Source: Tepidisphaera sp.
Lineage (GTDB): Bacteria > Planctomycetota > Phycisphaerae > Phycisphaerales > UBA1924
Direction: 5' to 3'
Assembly: GCA_016124375.1 (NCBI GenBank)
Contig: WGNV01000002.1
Coordinates: 372,001 to 436,000 of the forward strand
DNA: 64,000 bases
Under the pieces are notes generated by a model. That model saw nothing but the letters and a program-made list of their open reading frames with translations. It had not been told where the DNA came from and searched no databases. This document shows positions 11,314 to 29,205 of the stretch, one piece after another; the stretch's first letter is position 1; each line of letters begins with the position of its first letter. The position numbers were made by a program, and so were the translations under genes.

Positions 11314-12693
11314 ATGGATGCATTCCACGGACAACGCGTCACGGTGATGGGGCTTGGTCGCTTCGGCGGGGGCGTGGGCGTCACGCGCTGGCTGGCGGCA
11401 CGCGGAGCGAAGGTGCTCGTGACCGACATTGAGCCCGCGGGCAAGCTGCAGGCCTCGATCGAGGCCATACAGCCCTTAGTCGACGCCGGGCAGGTGACGC
11501 TGCGCCTGGGCGAGCATCGTGTGGAGGACTTCACTGGGTGCGACGTGGTGGTGGCGAACCCCGCGGTGCCGCGGCCTTGGGAGAATGTGTATTTGCAAGC
11601 CGCGGAGAAGGCGGGGGCGAAGATCACCACCGAGATCGGGCTGTCGGTGTCGCGGCTGGACCCTTCGCGCCTGGTGTGCATCACCGGCAGCGCGGGCAAG
11701 AGCACGACCTCGGCGCTGATCGCGCACATCCTCCAGCGTGCGGGCGAGCGCGTGAGGCTCGGGGGGAATATCGGCGGGTCGCTGCTGGAGACGGGGAGTG
11801 CGGAGGAAGCGGAAGGGCGGGTAGGCACAGGCGGGACGCCTGTGCCACGAGGTGGGGAAGGGAAAACAGCGAGCCCGTGGACGGTGCTGGAACTGTCGAG
11901 TTTTCAGTTGTACTGGCTCGGGCGCGAGATGGGCGGGCCCAAGCCCCGGGTCGCGTGCGTCACCAACATCGCGGACAATCATCTGGATTGGCACGTGACG
12001 TTTGAGCATTACGTGCAGAGCAAGCAGGTGATTTTGGCGGGTCAGGCGCTGGGCTCGCACGCGGTGCTGGGCGAGAACGTGCGCGAGTGGGCGACGGCGC
12101 CGGGCGTGACGCGGCGGGTCATCGCGGCGGATGCGAAGGTTGGCACGCTCGCGATCCCGGGCAGTCACAACCAGCGGAACGCGGCCATGGCGTGTGCGGC
12201 GGTTGCGGCGCTGGGCGTGTCGGGGCTCAGTGAGTCGAAAGCGGCGGCGCTGGCGGCTGACTACCCCGGCCTCCCCCACCGCCTGCAACTGGTCGCCCGA
12301 GTGCGGGGCGTGGCGTGCTACAACGACAGCAAGGCGACGACGCCCGAGGCCACACTGCTGGCGGTGCGGGCCCTGCACGAGAGCGGCGTGCGCGTGCATC
12401 TCATCGCAGGGGGCTACGACAAGCACGCGGATCTGTCGTCCGTGGCGGCGCTCGCGCGCGAGGGCGTGAGGCTGTACACGATAGGGGCGACCGGGCCGGT
12501 GATCGCCGCGAGCGCGGGGGGCAAGGCCACCGAGTGCGGCACGCTGGAGGTGGCGGTGCGGGCGGCGGTGAACGCCGCGCGCGAGGGCGAGGCGCTGCTG
12601 CTCAGCCCGGCGTGCGCGTCGTGGGATCAGTTCAGCAACTACGAGGAGCGGGGCGAGCAATTCGCGGCACTCGTGCGGGGGCACGGCGCATGA
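11314..12693 (+). CDS. murD: UDP-N-acetylmuramoylalanine--D-glutamate ligase
   Basis: VTVMGLGRFGGGVGVTRWL, CITGSAGKSTTSALIAHIL, VLELSSFQL, NIADNHLDWH, YNDSKATTPEAT. Confidence 0.93.
   Translation: MDAFHGQRVTVMGLGRFGGGVGVTRWLAARGAKVLVTDIEPAGKLQASIEAIQPLVDAGQVTLRLGEHRVEDFTGCDVVVANPAVPRPWENVYLQAAEKAGAKITTEIGLSVSRLDPSRLVCITGSAGKSTTSALIAHILQRAGERVRLGGNIGGSLLETGSAEEAEGRVGTGGTPVPRGGEGKTASPWTVLELSSFQLYWLGREMGGPKPRVACVTNIADNHLDWHVTFEHYVQSKQVILAGQALGSHAVLGENVREWATAPGVTRRVIAADAKVGTLAIPGSHNQRNAAMACAAVAALGVSGLSESKAAALAADYPGLPHRLQLVARVRGVACYNDSKATTPEATLLAVRALHESGVRVHLIAGGYDKHADLSSVAALAREGVRLYTIGATGPVIAASAGGKATECGTLEVAVRAAVNAAREGEALLLSPACASWDQFSNYEERGEQFAALVRGHGA
11824..11846. repeat. Perfect palindrome GGCACAGGCG-GGA-CGCCTGTGCC inside murD
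   Basis: 10-bp stems, 3-nt loop; the 25-mer ACAGGCGGGACGCCTGTGCCACGAG recurs identically at 12819-12843. Confidence 0.9.
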
Positions 12694-13538
12694 ACGGACC
12701 AAGATGGATGATCGCGGCGTGGGCGCTGGCGGCGAGCGCGGGGGTGCTGGTCGTTGCGGGGTGCGCGAGCGAGAAGCCGCCGGCTGTTACGAAGAACGCA
12801 GAAGTAGAAAGGAAAGGAACAGGCGGGACGCCTGTGCCACGAGCACGGGTGGAAGAAGAGATGCAGGCGCACCACTCGGAGAGTGGTGCCACCCAAGAAG
12901 CCGCGCCGGTCAACCTGCGGGAAGTCTTCCCGCACGTACAGCTCGATGCCAAGGCGGGCGTTATCGAGCTCGACGCGACGGTGTCGATCGAAGCGCACGA
13001 TCCGAAGCATCCCGACGTGTACCTCGAAACGCTGGTGTGCATTCCCGACAGCAAGGAGTACGAGTCGCTGCTCGTGACGAAGGCCAAGCCGAGTCACGTG
13101 CACGCGGCGTTGCTGCTGCTCGGGCTCAGCCCCGGGCAGCCGGGTGCCTGGGTGTGGGAGGGGGAGCACGTGCGGGGTGTGGCGCCCAGAGGCCCGGGGC
13201 TGCGGGTGCGGTTCGTCGTCGGCGGGAAGGAGTTCGCGCCGGGCGCGTGGGTGCGCGACCGAAAGACGGGAACGCTGATGGCAGATTCGCCCGGGGGCGA
13301 TTCATTCGTGTTCGCGGGTTCGATCATGACCGGCGCCGCCGGACGCGAGCATTACAAGGCCGACGTTGAAGGGTGCCTGGTCGGCCTGACCACGTTCGGT
13401 TCAGAGACGATCGCCTGGACGCAGATGTCCAACCCCGAGTCGGCGGCCGAGGAGCCCCACTGGGTGGCAGACCCCTCGATGCCCAACTTCGGCGACCCGG
13501 TGATCGTGCGGATATCTCGCCCGGGCGCGGGGGAATAG
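12690..13538 (+). CDS. Hypothetical lipoprotein, YdjY-domain-like
   Basis: Start ATG 12690 overlaps the murD stop; MNGPRWMIAAWALAASAGVLVVAGCASEKPP lipobox; VQLDAKAGVIELDATV...YLETLVCIPDSKEYESLLVTKAKPSHVHAALLLLG. Confidence 0.75.
   Translation: MNGPRWMIAAWALAASAGVLVVAGCASEKPPAVTKNAEVERKGTGGTPVPRARVEEEMQAHHSESGATQEAAPVNLREVFPHVQLDAKAGVIELDATVSIEAHDPKHPDVYLETLVCIPDSKEYESLLVTKAKPSHVHAALLLLGLSPGQPGAWVWEGEHVRGVAPRGPGLRVRFVVGGKEFAPGAWVRDRKTGTLMADSPGGDSFVFAGSIMTGAAGREHYKADVEGCLVGLTTFGSETIAWTQMSNPESAAEEPHWVADPSMPNFGDPVIVRISRPGAGE
12819..12843. repeat. Second copy of the ACAGGCGGGACGCCTGTGCCACGAG palindromic repeat
   Basis: Identical 25-mer to the murD copy. Confidence 0.9.
12869..12889. repeat. Second palindrome family GCACCACTC-GGA-GAGTGGTGC
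   Basis: Perfect 9-bp stems with a GGA loop, 26 bp after the first palindrome in the same gene. Confidence 0.85.
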
Positions 13539-16905: not shown

Positions 16906-16996
16906 GACGCCGGAACTGGGGCGCTGCGAAGTTCCGGAAGGCTCCCATCATGCTCTCGGGACTTGCCCGCACCTTCGCAGGCGCAGGCCTGGGGTC
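16906..16996. repeat. Diverged copy of the composite double-hairpin (REPIN-like) element
   Basis: Left half GACGCCGGAACTGGGGCGCTGCGAAGTTCCGG; right half matches the element's second half at about 23/30 positions by hand. Confidence 0.6.
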
Positions 16997-18341: not shown

Positions 18342-18388
18342 GGGAGGGCGCGAGGGAGTTTGTCAGGCCGCGTGGGCGGGCCGGCACT

Positions 18389-18469
18389 CGGCATTCGGCA
18401 TTCGCTGAAGATGTGCAGACCCGAATGCTTGGCCTTCAACGAATGCCGAATCACGAATGCCGAATGCCG
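18389..18469. repeat. Inverted repeat built from CGAATGCCGAATGCCG units
   Basis: CGGCATTCGGCATTCG (18389-18404) is the exact reverse complement of CGAATGCCGAATGCCG (18454-18469); related copy at 26694-26725. Confidence 0.85.
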
Positions 18470-19703: not shown

Positions 19704-20363
19704 CTAGGCGATCAACTTCATGCCGAACTCGATCATTTCGACCGACAGCCGCCCGGCCCACTCGTAGATGATCGCCCCGCCGTACCAGAACAGTGCCCAG
19801 GTCGCCACGATTCCGATCGCTCCGCCCCGCTCTCCCTGCCAGATTCGGTCATAGGCCGGCCAGAGGTCGCGTAGCGCGTGCCATCCATCCAGCGGCGGCA
19901 CCGGTATCAGGTTAAACAAGACCCCCACCATGTTCACTTCGAGGCCCGCGGAAAACACGTCCCACATCGCGTCCGAAACGCTGAGCATCAGTGGCAGACG
20001 CCCCGACTTCACAAGCACAAGAACGATCACGCAGAACATCGCCAGCAGCAGGTTCATTCCCGGCCCCGCCAGCGCCACCCTGGTTTCGTCGTATCGCCGC
20101 ATGTAGTTCCGGGGCTGGGTGGGCATCAATCCCCACGTAAACCCGAAAAGTCCGAACGTGATCCACGCCATGGGCCATGGGATGTGCACGAACGGGTTCG
20201 CCGTCATGTGCCCGGTAAGCTTTGGAATGTCATCGCCGCAACTGATCGCCGTCCAGCCGTGCGCCAGCTCGTGCAGGGTGATCGAAACGATCACCCACGC
20301 GACCCACGAGCACGCAAACAGCGGCCCATCCGAATCCCAAAACTCGCTGAACCACCAGTTCAT
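19704..20363 (-). CDS. Site-2 protease family (M50) membrane metalloprotease
   Basis: VIVSITLHELAHGWTAISCGDDIP (HExxH), FNLIPVPPLDGWHAL (NPxPxxDG-like). Confidence 0.85.
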   Translation of the reverse strand: MNWWFSEFWDSDGPLFACSWVAWVIVSITLHELAHGWTAISCGDDIPKLTGHMTANPFVHIPWPMAWITFGLFGFTWGLMPTQPRNYMRRYDETRVALAGPGMNLLLAMFCVIVLVLVKSGRLPLMLSVSDAMWDVFSAGLEVNMVGVLFNLIPVPPLDGWHALRDLWPAYDRIWQGERGGAIGIVATWALFWYGGAIIYEWAGRLSVEMIEFGMKLIA

Positions 20364-21481: not shown

Positions 21482-22036
21482 CTACGCGGCTCCCCCGTCG
21501 CTTCCGCCCCGCCCCTCGCGGTTCAGCACGCGATCCAGGAGCCCGTTGATGAACGCGGGCGACTTCTCCGTGCTGTAGTGCTTGGCCAGTTCCACAGCCT
21601 CGTTCACCACTACCCGCCCCGGGGTCTGCTTCAGCGCGAGTTCATGATGCGCGAGGCGCAGAATCGCCCGGTCCACCGCCGCCAATCGGTGCGTGGGCCA
21701 CTCCGGCGCCAGCGTCACGAACTCCTTGTCCGCCGCGTCCTTTCCTTCGAACGCCCCGCGCACGATCTCCCCGATCCGCTCCGCCGCCAGCGGCCCCAGC
21801 CCGTCCACCCGGGTGAGTGCCTCGCGCATTGACGCATCGTCGGCCAGCTTGTCGGCGTCGCGCAGGTACAACAACTGGAATGCCAGCCGCCGCGCCGCCA
21901 TCTGGAACGCCAGTTCGCGCTCCGCGGGTGTCAGCACTTCGAGTTCTGCGTCGGTCAGCGGCTCGCCACTATCTTCCCCATCCGCCATCTGCAGCATGCG
22001 CGAAAATGCGAGCCCGCGAAGTTCATCCGTAGTCAT
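21482..22036 (-). CDS. nusB: Transcription antitermination factor NusB
   Basis: ARRLAFQLLYLRDADK...DRAILRLAHHELALKQTPGRVVVNEAVELAKHYSTEKSPAFINGLLDRVL. Confidence 0.9.
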   Translation of the reverse strand: MTTDELRGLAFSRMLQMADGEDSGEPLTDAELEVLTPAERELAFQMAARRLAFQLLYLRDADKLADDASMREALTRVDGLGPLAAERIGEIVRGAFEGKDAADKEFVTLAPEWPTHRLAAVDRAILRLAHHELALKQTPGRVVVNEAVELAKHYSTEKSPAFINGLLDRVLNREGRGGSDGGAA

Positions 22037-22542
22037 CGTTGCCCCGCCTTGTCCGGCCGCAGCGTGAGCGCCGGCTTGGGCCCGCCGTTGATCGCCCCGA
22101 TCGTCGCCAGCGTATCGAGCAGTGCCGCCATCGCTTCCTCGCCCTTGTTGCCGTGCGCGCCCCCCGCCCGGTCCATCGCCTGGGCAGGCGTGTCCACCGT
22201 TAGAACGCCAAACGCCGCGGGCACGCCCGTGTAGATTCCCACCAGCATCAGCCCGTCGGCGACCGCCTGCGAGATGTACTTGTCGTGGCTCGTCTCGCCC
22301 TTGATCACGCACCCGAGCGCCACGACGCCGTCGAACCGCTCCGACTCAGCCGCGGCCTGCGCGATCACCGGAAGTTCATACGCCCCGGGCGCTTCGAACA
22401 CGTGCAGCCCGGCTTCGCTGCCGCGGCGCCTGGCATACTCGCGCTTCGCCCCGTCGAGCATCGGGCCGGTCACGCTCGCGTTATAGCGGCTCACGATAAT
22501 CGCGATCTCGCCCGCCGGTCTCACATTGGAACTCTTGGCCAT
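22033..22542 (-). CDS. ribH: 6,7-dimethyl-8-ribityllumazine synthase
   Basis: IAIIVSRYNASVTGPMLDGA, FEAPGAYELPVIAQAAAE, GVVALGCVIKGETSHDKYIS; 4-bp overlap with nusB. Confidence 0.95.
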   Translation of the reverse strand: MAKSSNVRPAGEIAIIVSRYNASVTGPMLDGAKREYARRRGSEAGLHVFEAPGAYELPVIAQAAAESERFDGVVALGCVIKGETSHDKYISQAVADGLMLVGIYTGVPAAFGVLTVDTPAQAMDRAGGAHGNKGEEAMAALLDTLATIGAINGGPKPALTLRPDKAGQR

Positions 22543-22585: not shown

Positions 22586-22665
22586 GACGCCGGAACTGAG
22601 GCTTTGCGAAGTTCCGGGTAAGGTTGGCGCCCGATCCGGACGTTCGAAGACTCACGTCCGGCGTC
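22586..22665. repeat. 80-bp composite double-hairpin (REPIN-like) element, copy B
   Basis: GACGCCGGAACTGAGGCTTTGCGAAGTTCCGGGT - 16 nt - CCGGACGTTCGAAGACTCACGTCCGGCGTC; terminal inverted repeats GACGCCGGA/TCCGGCGTC. Confidence 0.9.
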
Positions 22666-22680
22666 AGAAGAACGCCCTGC

Positions 22681-23538
22681 CTACACCAGTTTCAACGCGA
22701 AGAACACCGCAGTAAACGCCAGGTCCGCCATCACGATTGCCACCACGCATTGCACCACGGTGTTGGTGGTCGCGAGCCCGACGCCCGCCGCCCCGCCCTT
22801 CACCCGCAGCCCATTGATGCACGCGATCACGCCGATCAAGAGCCCGAACACCGTGCCCTTGCTGACGCCCGTCCAGAAATCCACCAGCTTCGCCTGCGCC
22901 AGCATATTGGTCCAGAACGTGTTCCCGGGCACGTCGAGGGCCGCCATGGCGATCCACATCGCCGCGGCGATCGCCACGATGTCCGCAATCACCGCCAGCA
23001 CCGTCATGCTGACAATCGACGCGATCACCCGGGGCACCACCAGAAACCGCACCGGGTCCAGCGCCAGTGATTCCAGCGCCTCGATTTCTTCGCTGACCAC
23101 CATCGTGCCGATCTCGGCCGCGATCGACGCGCCCGCGAAGCCCGTGAGCACGATCGCCCCGATCAGCGGCCCAAGCTCCCGCAGCACCGCCACCGACACG
23201 ATGTTCGCCACCTTGTCCTTCTGCCCGAAATCATCCAGGGGCGGGGCCATCTGCAAAGCGAGGATCAGCCCCACGCACCCCGACACCAGCGAAACAATGA
23301 ACACGCTCCGCACGCCGATGCGCACCATCTGCGTGATGATCGCGGGGCGGCCGACGCGCACCTTGCGGTTGTGCACCGAGCGCAGCACCCACCCCGCCGC
23401 GCCCAGCAGCAAAAACCAACTCGCCCCGATCAAATCCAGCGTGTTGAGAAGCCTCGCGCCTAGAAACGCCAGCCCGCGCAAGGGCAGCGTCAGCACCCGT
23501 CGAATCGGGCTCTGATTAACCGGCGCGGCTTCAGGCAC
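22681..23538 (-). CDS. mlaE: MlaE-family ABC transporter permease
   Basis: Hydrophobic MlaE/YrbE pattern: LTGFAGASIAAEIGTMVVSEEIEALESLALDPVRFLVVPRVIAS. Confidence 0.9.
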   Translation of the reverse strand: MPEAAPVNQSPIRRVLTLPLRGLAFLGARLLNTLDLIGASWFLLLGAAGWVLRSVHNRKVRVGRPAIITQMVRIGVRSVFIVSLVSGCVGLILALQMAPPLDDFGQKDKVANIVSVAVLRELGPLIGAIVLTGFAGASIAAEIGTMVVSEEIEALESLALDPVRFLVVPRVIASIVSMTVLAVIADIVAIAAAMWIAMAALDVPGNTFWTNMLAQAKLVDFWTGVSKGTVFGLLIGVIACINGLRVKGGAAGVGLATTNTVVQCVVAIVMADLAFTAVFFALKLV

Positions 23539-24923: not shown

Positions 24924-26492
24924 ATGTCCCAGCCGCTCACCTCGGGCGAGATCGTCCCGATCATCGACTTCGGGGGCCAGACCGCCCAACTCATCGCCCG
25001 CCGCGTGCGCGACGCCGGCGTCTTTTCGCTGCTCGTCTCGCCTTCGATCACCCCCAAAGAACTCGCCGCGCTCAAACCCCGCGGCATCATCCTCTCGGGC
25101 GGGCCCAGCAGCGTCTACGACCCCGGCGCCCCCACTCTCGATCCCGCCATCTTCGACATGGGCCTGCCCATCCTCGGCATCTGCTACGGCATGCAACTGG
25201 CCTGCCACCTGCTCGGAGGCAAGGTCGACAAAGCCAACCATCGCGAGTTCGGCCGTGCTCAACTCTCCATCTCCCACGCCTCCTCGCGCCTGCTGCGGGG
25301 CGTGCCCGATCACACCACCGTCTGGATGTCCCACGGCGACCAAGTTCAAGACCCCGGGGGCCTCTTCTCTCCCCTGGCTAGCACCCCCACCTGCCCCAAC
25401 GCCGTCGTCGAGATGAACCCCTCGACCGGCCGCACCTTCTTCGGCGTGCAGTTCCACCCGGAGGTCACCCACACGCCCCACGGCTCGGATGTCATCCGGA
25501 ACTTCCTCTACGACATTTGCAAGTGCGAGGGTCACTGGCGCATGACCGACTTCGCCGACGCCGCCGTCAGGCGCGTGCGCGAGCAGGTCGGCTCCGCCCA
25601 CGTGATCTGCGGCCTTTCCGGCGGCGTCGATTCCGCCGTCGTCGCCGCACTCCTCCACAAAGCCCTGGGTCCCCAGCTCCACTGCGTGTTCGTCGATACG
25701 GGCTTGCTCCGCCGCGGCGAACGCCAACTCGTCGAAACCACCTTCCGCGATCACTTCCGCATCGATCTCCGCGTCGCCGACAGCGAGGCCGACTTCCTCG
25801 CCGATCTCGCGGGCGTCACCGACCCGCAGGACAAACGCAAGCGCATCGGCAAGCGCTTCATCGACGTCTTCAAGGCCGCCGCCAAGAGCATCCCCAACGC
25901 CACCATGCTCGCCCAGGGCACGCTCTACCCCGACGTCATCGAGTCGGGCCATGGCCACAGCGGCCAGGCCGCGGGCATCAAGCTGCACCATAACGTCGGG
26001 GGCCTGCCCGCCGACCTGGGCTTCACGCTCGTCGAACCCCTGCGCGACCTCTTCAAAGACGAAGTCCGCAAGCTCGGCAGCGTGCTGGGCCTGCCCGACC
26101 AGATCGTCTGGCGCCACCCCTTCCCCGGCCCGGGCCTGGCGGTGCGCGTGCTGGGCGAAGTGACCAAACCCAAGCTCGACCTGCTGCGCCACGCCGACGA
26201 AATCCTGCTCGAAGAAATTGTCGGTGCCGACCTGTACCGCAAGACCAGCCAGGTCTTTGCCGTGCTGCTGCCCGTGCGCAGCGTGGGCGTGATGGGCGAC
26301 GGGCGCACCTACGAAAGCACGATCGCGATTCGAGCCGTCGAGACCGAAGACTTCATGAGCGCCGACTGGAGCCGCATCCCTTACGACGTGCTGGCGAGAA
26401 TCTCCTCCCGCATCATCAACGAAGTGCGAGGCGTCAACCGCGTCGTCTACGACATCTCCAGCAAGCCGCCCGCGACGATCGAGTGGGAGTGA
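24924..26492 (+). CDS. guaA: GMP synthase (glutamine-hydrolysing)
   Basis: [63 protein letters not shown]-terminal PPATIEWE. Confidence 0.97.
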
Positions 26493-26546: not shown

Positions 26547-26626
26547 GACGCCGGACCTGAGTCTTCGAAGGTCCGGGTCGAACATCCGCAACACCCGGAA
26601 CTTCGCAAAGCCTCAGTTCCGGCGTC
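26547..26626. repeat. 80-bp composite double-hairpin (REPIN-like) element, copy C (opposite orientation to copy B)
   Basis: Reverse complement has the same first 34 nt as copy B, a different 16-nt spacer, and the same last 30 nt except one compensatory G-C/C-G stem pair. Confidence 0.9.
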
Positions 26627-26693: not shown

Positions 26694-26725
26694 AACGAAT
26701 GCCGAATGCCGAATCACGAATGCCG
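26694..26725. repeat. AACGAATGCCGAATGCCGAATCACGAATGCCG repeat
   Basis: Same units as the repeat at 18439-18470 in a different order. Confidence 0.8.
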
Positions 26726-26735
26726 CCCGTCTAAC

Positions 26736-26760
26736 AAAAACCCCCGGCTCGCGCCGGGGG
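26736..26760 (-). terminator. Rho-independent terminator of the prolyl oligopeptidase gene
   Basis: CCCCCGGC-TCGC-GCCGGGGG (26741-26760); on the minus strand followed by TTTTTGTT. Confidence 0.85.
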
Positions 26761-26789
26761 CTCGTTCAACTTCGCTCTAAACACCCCGC

Positions 26790-29030
26790 TCAGTTCCCCT
26801 GCGGCACATACTGCAACATCCCAAGCTGCCGCATCAGGAACATCCGCTCATCCACCACATCGCGCAGGCGCAGGTTCAGGGGCTTGCCCTGGCCGTGCCC
26901 GGCTTCCCGATCCACCCACAGCAGAATCGGCTTCTGGTTCTGGTCGCTCGCGTCCGCCGCCCGCAGCGCCGCCGCGAACTTGCGGGCGTGCCCCGGGTGC
27001 ACGCGGCTGTCGTTCTCACCCGCCGTCAGGTACACCGCCGGATACTTGGTGCCGGGCTTCACGTTCTGGTAGGGCGAGTACTTGATGAGCCAGTTGAAGT
27101 CGGCCGCGTTCGCCGGATCGCCGTACTCGGGCACCCAGTAGCGGGCCATCAGGAAGTTCTGATAGCGGATCATGTCCAGCAGCGGCACCGCCACGATCGC
27201 CGCGCTGAACAATTCCGGCCGCTGCGTCACCAGCGTGCCCGTCAGCAAGCCACCGTTCGAGCCCCCGCGGATCGCCAGTCGCTCCGGCCGCGTGTATCCC
27301 TCGTGCTCCAGGTACTCCGCCGCCGCGGCGAAGTCGTCGAACACATTCTGCTTCTTGTCGAGCATGCCCGACGTGTGCCAGTTCTCGCCATACTCGCCGC
27401 CGCCGCGAAGGTTCGCGATGGCGTACACCCCGCCCCAGTCCAGCCACTGGAAGAGAGTGGCGCTGAAGCCGGGGGTCATCGGAATGTTGAACCCGCCGTA
27501 CCCGTACAGAATCGTCGGGTTGTCGCCGTTGAGGTTCAAACCCTTCTTGTGCACGATGAACATGCTGACCTTGGTGCCGTCCTTGGAGGTGTACCACACC
27601 TGCTTGACGACCGCCGAGTCGGGGTTCACGGGCACATCGGGCCGCTCCCACAGTTCGGGCTCGGCGTCAGGGCTGGCCAGGTCCACACGGAAGATCGAGG
27701 GGGGATAGTTGAAACTGCTGAAGGACAGGTACGCCTCGCTCCGGTCTTTTTCGGTCGAGAGCCCGGCGGTGCCGATGCCCGGCAGACGCAGCGTGCCCTT
27801 GGGCGCGCCGGTCAAATCAAACAGGTCAATCTGCGTCGAAGCGTTGACCATGTACGTGACGGCGACGCGGCCCCCGGCGATCGACACGCCCTGGATCACC
27901 GCGTCCTTGCGTTCCGGCACGATGGTCTTCCACGTCGATTCATCGCCGTTGTTCTTGCCGTGCAGGTCGATCGCGACCACCCGGCCGTTGGGCGAGTTGT
28001 ACGTGGTCTGCATGTACGCCACGTCGTCGACGACTTCGGCGATGCCGCTGCTGGCCTGCTTGCCGGTGAGGCTGAAATCCTCGTAGAGCGTGCCGGTCTT
28101 GCGCCAGTCGTCAAAGTTGATCACCCACAGGTCGTTGCTGGCGGTGCCGGTGGCGTACGACAGAATGAACCACTTGCCCGTCTTGTCCAGCCCGCCGTCG
28201 GGGCCCCAGGTGGTCGCCAGCTTGGCGTCTTCTTCGGGGGTGTATTGGCGGAAGATCAGCTTGTCATTGGCCGGGTCCTGCCCCATCACGTGAAACTTGA
28301 GCTGCCCCGAATACGGGTTCTTGATGTCACTGAGGTTGTGATACACAAAGCCCGACGAATCGGGCAGCCAGGTCGGCGCCTCGGTCTTGCCGGGGATCTC
28401 AAGGGGCAATGTCTGCCCGGTGTCCACGTTCATCAAGTGCAGCACGGAGTTCTCGTCGCCCGCGCGATACGTGCCGTACGCGACCAGCTTGCCGTCGTGG
28501 CTGGGGCTGATCCACGAGATCGTGGTCAGGCCGCTGGCGTCGAGCTTGGCGGGGTCGAGCAGCTCGTGGGGCTGGCCCTTGTAGCCGTCCCTGTAAAAGT
28601 ACACGGGCTGGTTCTGCGTGCCCTCTCGCTTGGAGTAGAAGTATCGGTCGGCGTACATCCCCGGGGCCGACACCGAGCCCACTTCCATGAGCGGGCGGAT
28701 TTCCGCTTCGATCTTGTCCCGGCCGGGCAGGTTGTCCAGCCAAGCGCGGGTATAGGCGTTCTGGGCGTCGGTCCACTTGGCTACCTCGTCATCGACCTTG
28801 CCCATGTGGTCCGGGTCCGCGTTGTCACCCTCCAGCCAGCGGTAGTTGTCGGTGAGGGTGACGCCGTGGATCGTCTCGGTGACCGGGTCGATCTTGGTTT
28901 CGGGGGGCGAATCGGGCACCGCGGCCGGCTTGGGCAGTATGCTCACGGGCGGGAGGTTCCGTTGAGACTGACAGGCGCCGAGGATGAGGATGGTGCCCGA
29001 GATCGCCGCCAGTACGACCGAGTTGTGCAT
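26790..29030 (-). CDS. Prolyl oligopeptidase (S9A) family, exported
   Basis: TLTDNYRWLEGDNAD, RLAIRGGSNGGLLTGTLVTQRPELFSAAIVAVPLLDMIRY; signal/lipobox-like N-terminus ILILGACQSQ. Confidence 0.92.
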   Translation of the reverse strand: MHNSVVLAAISGTILILGACQSQRNLPPVSILPKPAAVPDSPPETKIDPVTETIHGVTLTDNYRWLEGDNADPDHMGKVDDEVAKWTDAQNAYTRAWLDNLPGRDKIEAEIRPLMEVGSVSAPGMYADRYFYSKREGTQNQPVYFYRDGYKGQPHELLDPAKLDASGLTTISWISPSHDGKLVAYGTYRAGDENSVLHLMNVDTGQTLPLEIPGKTEAPTWLPDSSGFVYHNLSDIKNPYSGQLKFHVMGQDPANDKLIFRQYTPEEDAKLATTWGPDGGLDKTGKWFILSYATGTASNDLWVINFDDWRKTGTLYEDFSLTGKQASSGIAEVVDDVAYMQTTYNSPNGRVVAIDLHGKNNGDESTWKTIVPERKDAVIQGVSIAGGRVAVTYMVNASTQIDLFDLTGAPKGTLRLPGIGTAGLSTEKDRSEAYLSFSSFNYPPSIFRVDLASPDAEPELWERPDVPVNPDSAVVKQVWYTSKDGTKVSMFIVHKKGLNLNGDNPTILYGYGGFNIPMTPGFSATLFQWLDWGGVYAIANLRGGGEYGENWHTSGMLDKKQNVFDDFAAAAEYLEHEGYTRPERLAIRGGSNGGLLTGTLVTQRPELFSAAIVAVPLLDMIRYQNFLMARYWVPEYGDPANAADFNWLIKYSPYQNVKPGTKYPAVYLTAGENDSRVHPGHARKFAAALRAADASDQNQKPILLWVDREAGHGQGKPLNLRLRDVVDERMFLMRQLGMLQYVPQGN

Positions 29031-29205
29031 TTGGAATCTCCCTGAGAAACAACGCCCGCAAGAGGCCGAGAATAACCCCCCACCCCTGAGGCGAGCGGCA
29101 TTGTTGGAGGACCACCGACGGATTTCCCGGGTTCGACCCCTTGGAACACCTGTTTTCCGGATTTGCAATCAGCCTCCCCTGGGGGGACATAATTACGCGT
29201 CAGCC

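Follow-up and report, generated by a model that had tools for sequence, protein, structure and literature searches.

The 80-bp element at positions 26547-26626 of the window, here called copy C, is highly likely to be a REPIN, a miniature mobile element that is non-autonomous and consists of a pair of REP hairpins in inverted orientation, each with its GACG head on the outside. The window is the whole 64,000-nucleotide stretch analysed (G000:C1:372001-436000; GC 66%), and the genome, G000, is a 3.11-Mb draft in 16 contigs that is 76% complete. Our reading follows from a dispersed and mostly intergenic family with a strict anatomy, a RAYT gene (a divergent HUH/Y1 tyrosine transposase) bordered by the hairpins of the family, the pairing of such genes with hairpins in relatives, the conserved HUH and tyrosine residues, the fold, the lineage-specific presence and the lack of a target-site duplication. 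The RAYT of the same genome very probably copies the element.

Anatomy and distribution of the hairpin family

Comparison of the reverse complement of copy C with copy B (22586-22665) confirms that the first 34 nt are identical and that the last 30 nt contain only two differences, which together make up a single base pair of the stem (CCGGACGT/ACGTCCGG in copy B, CCGGACCT/AGGTCCGG in copy C). The spacers, described in the original prediction as completely different, are mostly so, but 6-7 of the 16 letters still coincide. The resemblance between the two copies is far beyond chance.

Copy C begins with hairpin alpha on the forward strand (26547..26578; G000:C1:398547-398578:+), which consists of a GACG head, the stem CCGGACCT/AGGTCCGG enclosing the 10-nt loop GAGTCTTCGA, and a GT tail. 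An unconserved spacer of 14 nt between the two tails (26579..26592) separates it from the inverted hairpin beta on the reverse strand (26593..26626; G000:C1:398593-398626:-), where a GACG head and a GT tail flank the stem CCGGAACT/AGTTCCGG and the 12-nt loop GAGGCTTTGCGA. In copy B, beta lies on the forward strand (22586..22619; G000:C1:394586-394619:+) and alpha, with the compensatory variant of the stem, on the reverse strand (22634..22665; G000:C1:394634-394665:-). Copy A is a single beta hairpin on the forward strand (16906..16939; G000:C1:388906-388939:+) whose partner looks decayed. Each of these hairpins is matched by R1, a model of the single hairpin with which the genome was searched.

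The R1 search located 106 hairpin monomers at 69 sites, comprising 37 two-hairpin dimers and 32 single-monomer sites; the copy C 80-mer itself has 47 matches in the genome by BLAST. From 5' to 3', a monomer is composed of GACG, an 8-bp stem CCGGANNT, a GAG...CGA loop, the opposite arm and GT. The unpaired GACG head 5' of the stem is present in 102 of the 106 monomers, the loop starts with GAG and ends with CGA in 94, and the GT tail is found in 93. Loops are 10, 11 or 12 nt long, with 13 nt in two monomers. All 37 dimers have their GACG heads outward, and in 24 of them one loop is 10 nt and the other 12 nt long, the tails usually being 14 nt apart (the modal spacing), exactly as in copy C. Using a simple home-made ORF predictor, which missed the RAYT gene, we placed 61 of the 69 sites between genes: 36 between tandem, 16 between convergent and nine between divergent genes.

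A second palindromic repeat, ACAGGCGGGACGCCTGTSCCAC, occurs in the window at 11826-11844 and 12818-12836. Allowing at most one mismatch, it has 59 copies in the genome, compared with one for the reversed control.

Matched stem changes and the RNA alternative

The fixed length, unconserved spacer and paired changes in the stem originally noted in copies B and C hold far more widely, across the 106 monomers. The inner stem dinucleotide occurs in nine types (CC, GG, GA, AC, AG, CA, CG, TC and TG), each with its complement in the opposite arm. It is matched in 94% of cases compared with 28% when the 3' arms are shuffled and 45% (maximum 56%) when they are shuffled within loop-length classes. The same stems are found in different loop classes, which implies that changes on both sides have originated, or been exchanged, on several occasions. 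An apparent avoidance of identical stems within dimers (two observed, eight expected) was set aside, as it is confounded by loop class.

Selection on structure, as proposed from the first copies, is a reasonable interpretation of these changes, but covariation alone cannot distinguish selection on DNA from selection on RNA, or selection from hairpin-templated repair. In the latter process, quasipalindrome correction during replication changes both sides of a stem in one step and would produce matched changes without any selection on structure. In its favour, intermediates with mismatched arms are scarce: 97.5% of stem positions form Watson-Crick pairs. Taken as the whole explanation it is nevertheless doubtful, as it leaves the constant head, the GAG/CGA loop and the linkage to the RAYT gene unexplained, and these need recognition; it may act together with the REPIN mechanism.

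The original prediction had instead looked to the RNA, with the transcribed hairpins serving as bidirectional terminators or as blocks to 3' exonucleases and the covariation reflecting selection on that RNA. The predicted fold of the copy C 80-mer is indeed strong (z = -7.3 as RNA, -7.6 as DNA), 52 of the 61 intergenic sites (the 36 tandem and 16 convergent ones, by the same ORF predictor) have a gene 3' end on at least one side, and REPs in other systems are known to have taken on functions of this kind. The surroundings of copy C do not bear this out. The GMP synthase gene (24924..26492, forward strand; Pfam GMP_synt_C and GATase) ends with its stop codon 54 bp before copy C, and a prolyl oligopeptidase-like gene (26790..29168, reverse strand; Pfam Peptidase_S9) converges on it from the other side. 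There is no T-run or U-tract on either flank of copy C. The peptidase gene has a terminator-like hairpin and T-run of its own, recognized in the sequence at about 26741-26768 (reverse strand), which is shared by five of six relatives without the copy C element. A terminator scan found none, but it also missed this clear hairpin and T-run, probably because its Ts were taken up in wobble pairs. The window gave no Rfam match at the gathering score. Furthermore, the element is lineage-specific, the nearly constant unpaired 5' GACG is not needed for RNA stability alone, and hairpins of this kind border the RAYT gene, whose product processes hairpins. A primary RNA function is therefore improbable; some sites may have gained an RNA role later, but nothing requires one and copy C shows none. 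In our view, the matched stem changes are best explained by the DNA-level life cycle of a REPIN and not by an RNA device.

The gap that separates copy C from the next gene also holds one of two clusters of CGAATGCCGAAT(CA)CGAATGCCG repeats (window 18382-18469 and 26696-26725). There are five overlapping matches, and shuffled sequences give none.

The RAYT gene, its hairpins and signs of mobility

The RAYT gene lies outside the window on the reverse strand of another contig (G000:C16:20391-20936), and its product shares 42% identity (E 1.2e-30) with a 175-aa Y1_Tnp protein of G052, a relative from another family. Three R1 matches surround the gene within about 130 bp: one REP is located about 40 bp upstream (C16:20977-21009), and a REP dimer downstream (C16:20360-20392 and 20304-20336) has its nearer REP overlapping the stop codon. 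The locus with its bordering REPs is a REPtron. It is the only close RAYT homologue in G000, and it is bordered by the family's own hairpins. The hairpins that border the G052 gene share the core but have the head CAAG.

Alignment of 14 RAYT homologues indicates that His98 and His100 of the HUH motif, Trp134 and Tyr155 are invariant, and equivalents of the HUH residues, Trp134 and Tyr155 are found among 70 homologues. The protein from G000 has no Y1_Tnp match in Pfam and scores 15.1 bits against the NCBIfam RAYT model NF047646, for which the cut-off is 80 bits. A structure was predicted from the 70-row alignment for the homologue L187, not for the G000 protein, with a pLDDT of 93.8. The best PDB match of this model in Foldseek is 4ER8 (E 1.6e-4), with moderate TM-scores of 0.51-0.52, and VIA gave Z values of 12-13 to IS200/IS605 transposases and 11.3 to 4ER8. 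As judged from this predicted model, the family is shown to have the RAYT/IS200 fold.

Other candidate drivers were considered and rejected. Two ordinary IS200-like transposases of G000 (L031 and L033; Pfam Y1_Tnp) have no such REP within 1.5 kb. A class 3-like HUH gene (G000:C8:2307-2771) is interrupted by a TGA codon, is probably a remnant and has no such REP beside it. Two copies of the second palindromic repeat, ACAGGCGGGACGCCTGTSCCAC (C8:180 and C8:5184), lie within about 2.5 kb of this disrupted gene.

A scan of named genomes yielded 80 loci with RAYT homologues, nearly all from Planctomycetota and many from Phycisphaerales. The host of the element is probably close to Phycisphaerales, to judge from near-identical RAYT records in genomes of its family. 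Matching hairpins on both sides were found at 36 of 79 testable loci, compared with one of 293 shifted control positions at the same loci; the other 43 did not pass this strict both-sides test. In G015 and G019 the RAYT gene is likewise flanked on both sides by R1 matches. Hairpins of the GAG...CGA type lie beside 28 RAYT genes, with heads GACG, CACG, AACG, CAAG and similar and with varied stems; the combinations of head and stem seen by RAYT clade include GACG-CCGGANNT, CACG-CCGAGGCT and CAAG-CCGGACCT. On the protein tree the G000 RAYT falls within a well supported clade of 17, and the 12 labelled members of this clade all have heads ending in ACG. Head type is clustered on the tree, with eight changes compared with 15.7 after shuffling (0 of 500 shuffles). 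One genome of the same family, G017 (94% complete), has 80 GACG-type REPs, 13 of which tie at the top model score, and no recognizable RAYT; these REPs may be orphans left by loss of the RAYT, or the gene may fall in an assembly gap. This genome counts against the REPIN reading, as do the 43 loci that failed the both-sides test, the moderate TM-scores of the homologue model and the low scores of the G000 protein in the curated models.

Based on these comparisons, we consider it somewhat probable that Planctomycetota harbour a RAYT-REP superfamily apart from the GTAG systems with a code of its own: an NA[C/A]G head, a loop base rich in GA (GAG...CGA) and an inner stem that is free to vary. If so, heads and stems differ from one transposase clade to another and provide natural transposase-hairpin pairs for deciphering the recognition of single-stranded DNA. 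Other RAYT branches (L199, L213, L220, L222, L229, L231, L239, L249, L260 and others) have quite different bordering hairpins, for example AAAGCCCAGGGAA-AGCT, CCCGCAGCC and CACCGGGGC, each clade with its own type.

Copies B and C are both absent at the orthologous places in genus relatives (six other genomes). Copy B lies between an MlaE permease gene (22681..23538, reverse strand) and a lumazine synthase gene (22033..22542, reverse strand), both assigned by Pfam. The genus orthologues of the permease gene have no element downstream, and in G003, G006, G002 and G004 the gene pair is preserved but the space between the two genes holds no element. None of the six relatives has an element downstream of the peptidase gene at site C; there the neighbour across the gap also differs, so that site B is the cleaner empty site. 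The empty sites in relatives point to movement, and we infer that the RAYT mobilizes the REPIN. A target-site duplication of at least 3 bp was found in none of the 37 dimers, and T precedes the head (position -1) in 51% of cases compared with a background of 17%. Both observations are as would be expected for single-strand Y1 chemistry, and the E. coli RAYT cleaves at CT (PMC8266576).

Size (80 bp), inverted ends and dispersal would also suit a MITE of an ordinary DDE-transposase insertion sequence, with the outer GACGCCGG as terminal inverted repeats. This origin is very improbable given the lack of duplications, and each end is itself a hairpin that occurs alone at the single-monomer sites and borders an HUH gene.

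The location of the hairpins around the gene for a hairpin-processing transposase suggests that a REPIN is recognized as single-stranded DNA. The RAYT would bind a hairpin exposed in this form at a replication fork or in a cruciform, reading the 4-nt head and the GA-rich loop base. It would cleave beside the head, after a pyrimidine-T, and by cutting and joining at the heads of a dimer would paste the unit into a new single-stranded site. Paired stem changes are to be expected if only intact hairpins are recognized: a change would last only with both arms matching, either because unpaired hairpins are not mobilized or because one arm templates the repair of the other.

Comparison with known REP systems

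The family is structurally a REPIN/RAYT system, and it is covered neither by the GTAG and CGTC REP families nor by the Pfam and NCBIfam RAYT models. Among the texts searched, none joined Phycisphaer- names, palindromic repeats and a transposase. The covarying 80-bp repeat can be explained without an unknown RNA, and a RAYT family is added to which Pfam gives a weak score or none and which falls far below the cut-off of the NCBIfam model. The case also carries a caution, in that compensatory change in short bacterial repeats can signal recognition of DNA hairpins by a transposase and not an RNA function.

Like the REPINs of Pseudomonas and E. coli (Bertels and Rainey 2011, PMC3116915), the element consists of an inverted pair of REP hairpins with a variable spacer, present in many intergenic copies alongside one REP-bordered RAYT. 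It differs from them in having a GACG and not a GTAG head, in the GAG/CGA loop base and in a RAYT that scores below the curated model cut-off. The cognate REPs of RAYT/TnpA_REP proteins have GTAG or GTGG heads, whereas those found here are GACG, CACG, CAAG and AACG. The HUH and tyrosine catalytic core is shared with E. coli TnpA_REP (4ER8, a RAYT bound to a REP hairpin), but sequence identity is about 12-16%, the head and hairpin are different and the present proteins have their own N-terminal motif, WLPGDPRGFR..HR.HSSGDYK.

Like the present family, the class 3 HuH-Y proteins of Planctomycetes (Quentin et al. 2018, PMC6006769), which are about 178 aa long, have atypical hairpins on their borders, each with a foot of 4 nt. 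The class 3 features are NHVH, YV[VI]xEQ and the foot CnGA, compared here with THVH/xHxH (T, S or other residues, mostly not N, before HxH), a YIxxH-like tyrosine motif and the foot NA[C/A]G.

Stems of 8-9 bp that begin with AT, loops of 4-5 nt and CCA tails characterize the CGTC-tagged REPs (Di Nocera et al. 2013, PMC3733652), and the survey that described them named Planctomycetes among the REP host phyla. The present family resembles them in its outer ends (GACG...CGTC) and in its heterodimers, which predominate in some CGTC families. In contrast, its stems start with CC, its loops are 10-13 nt long, its tails are GT and it has an adjacent RAYT. The 2013 survey found no dedicated transposase for CGTC REPs; with the RAYT described here, a CGTC/GACG-ended REP family gains one.
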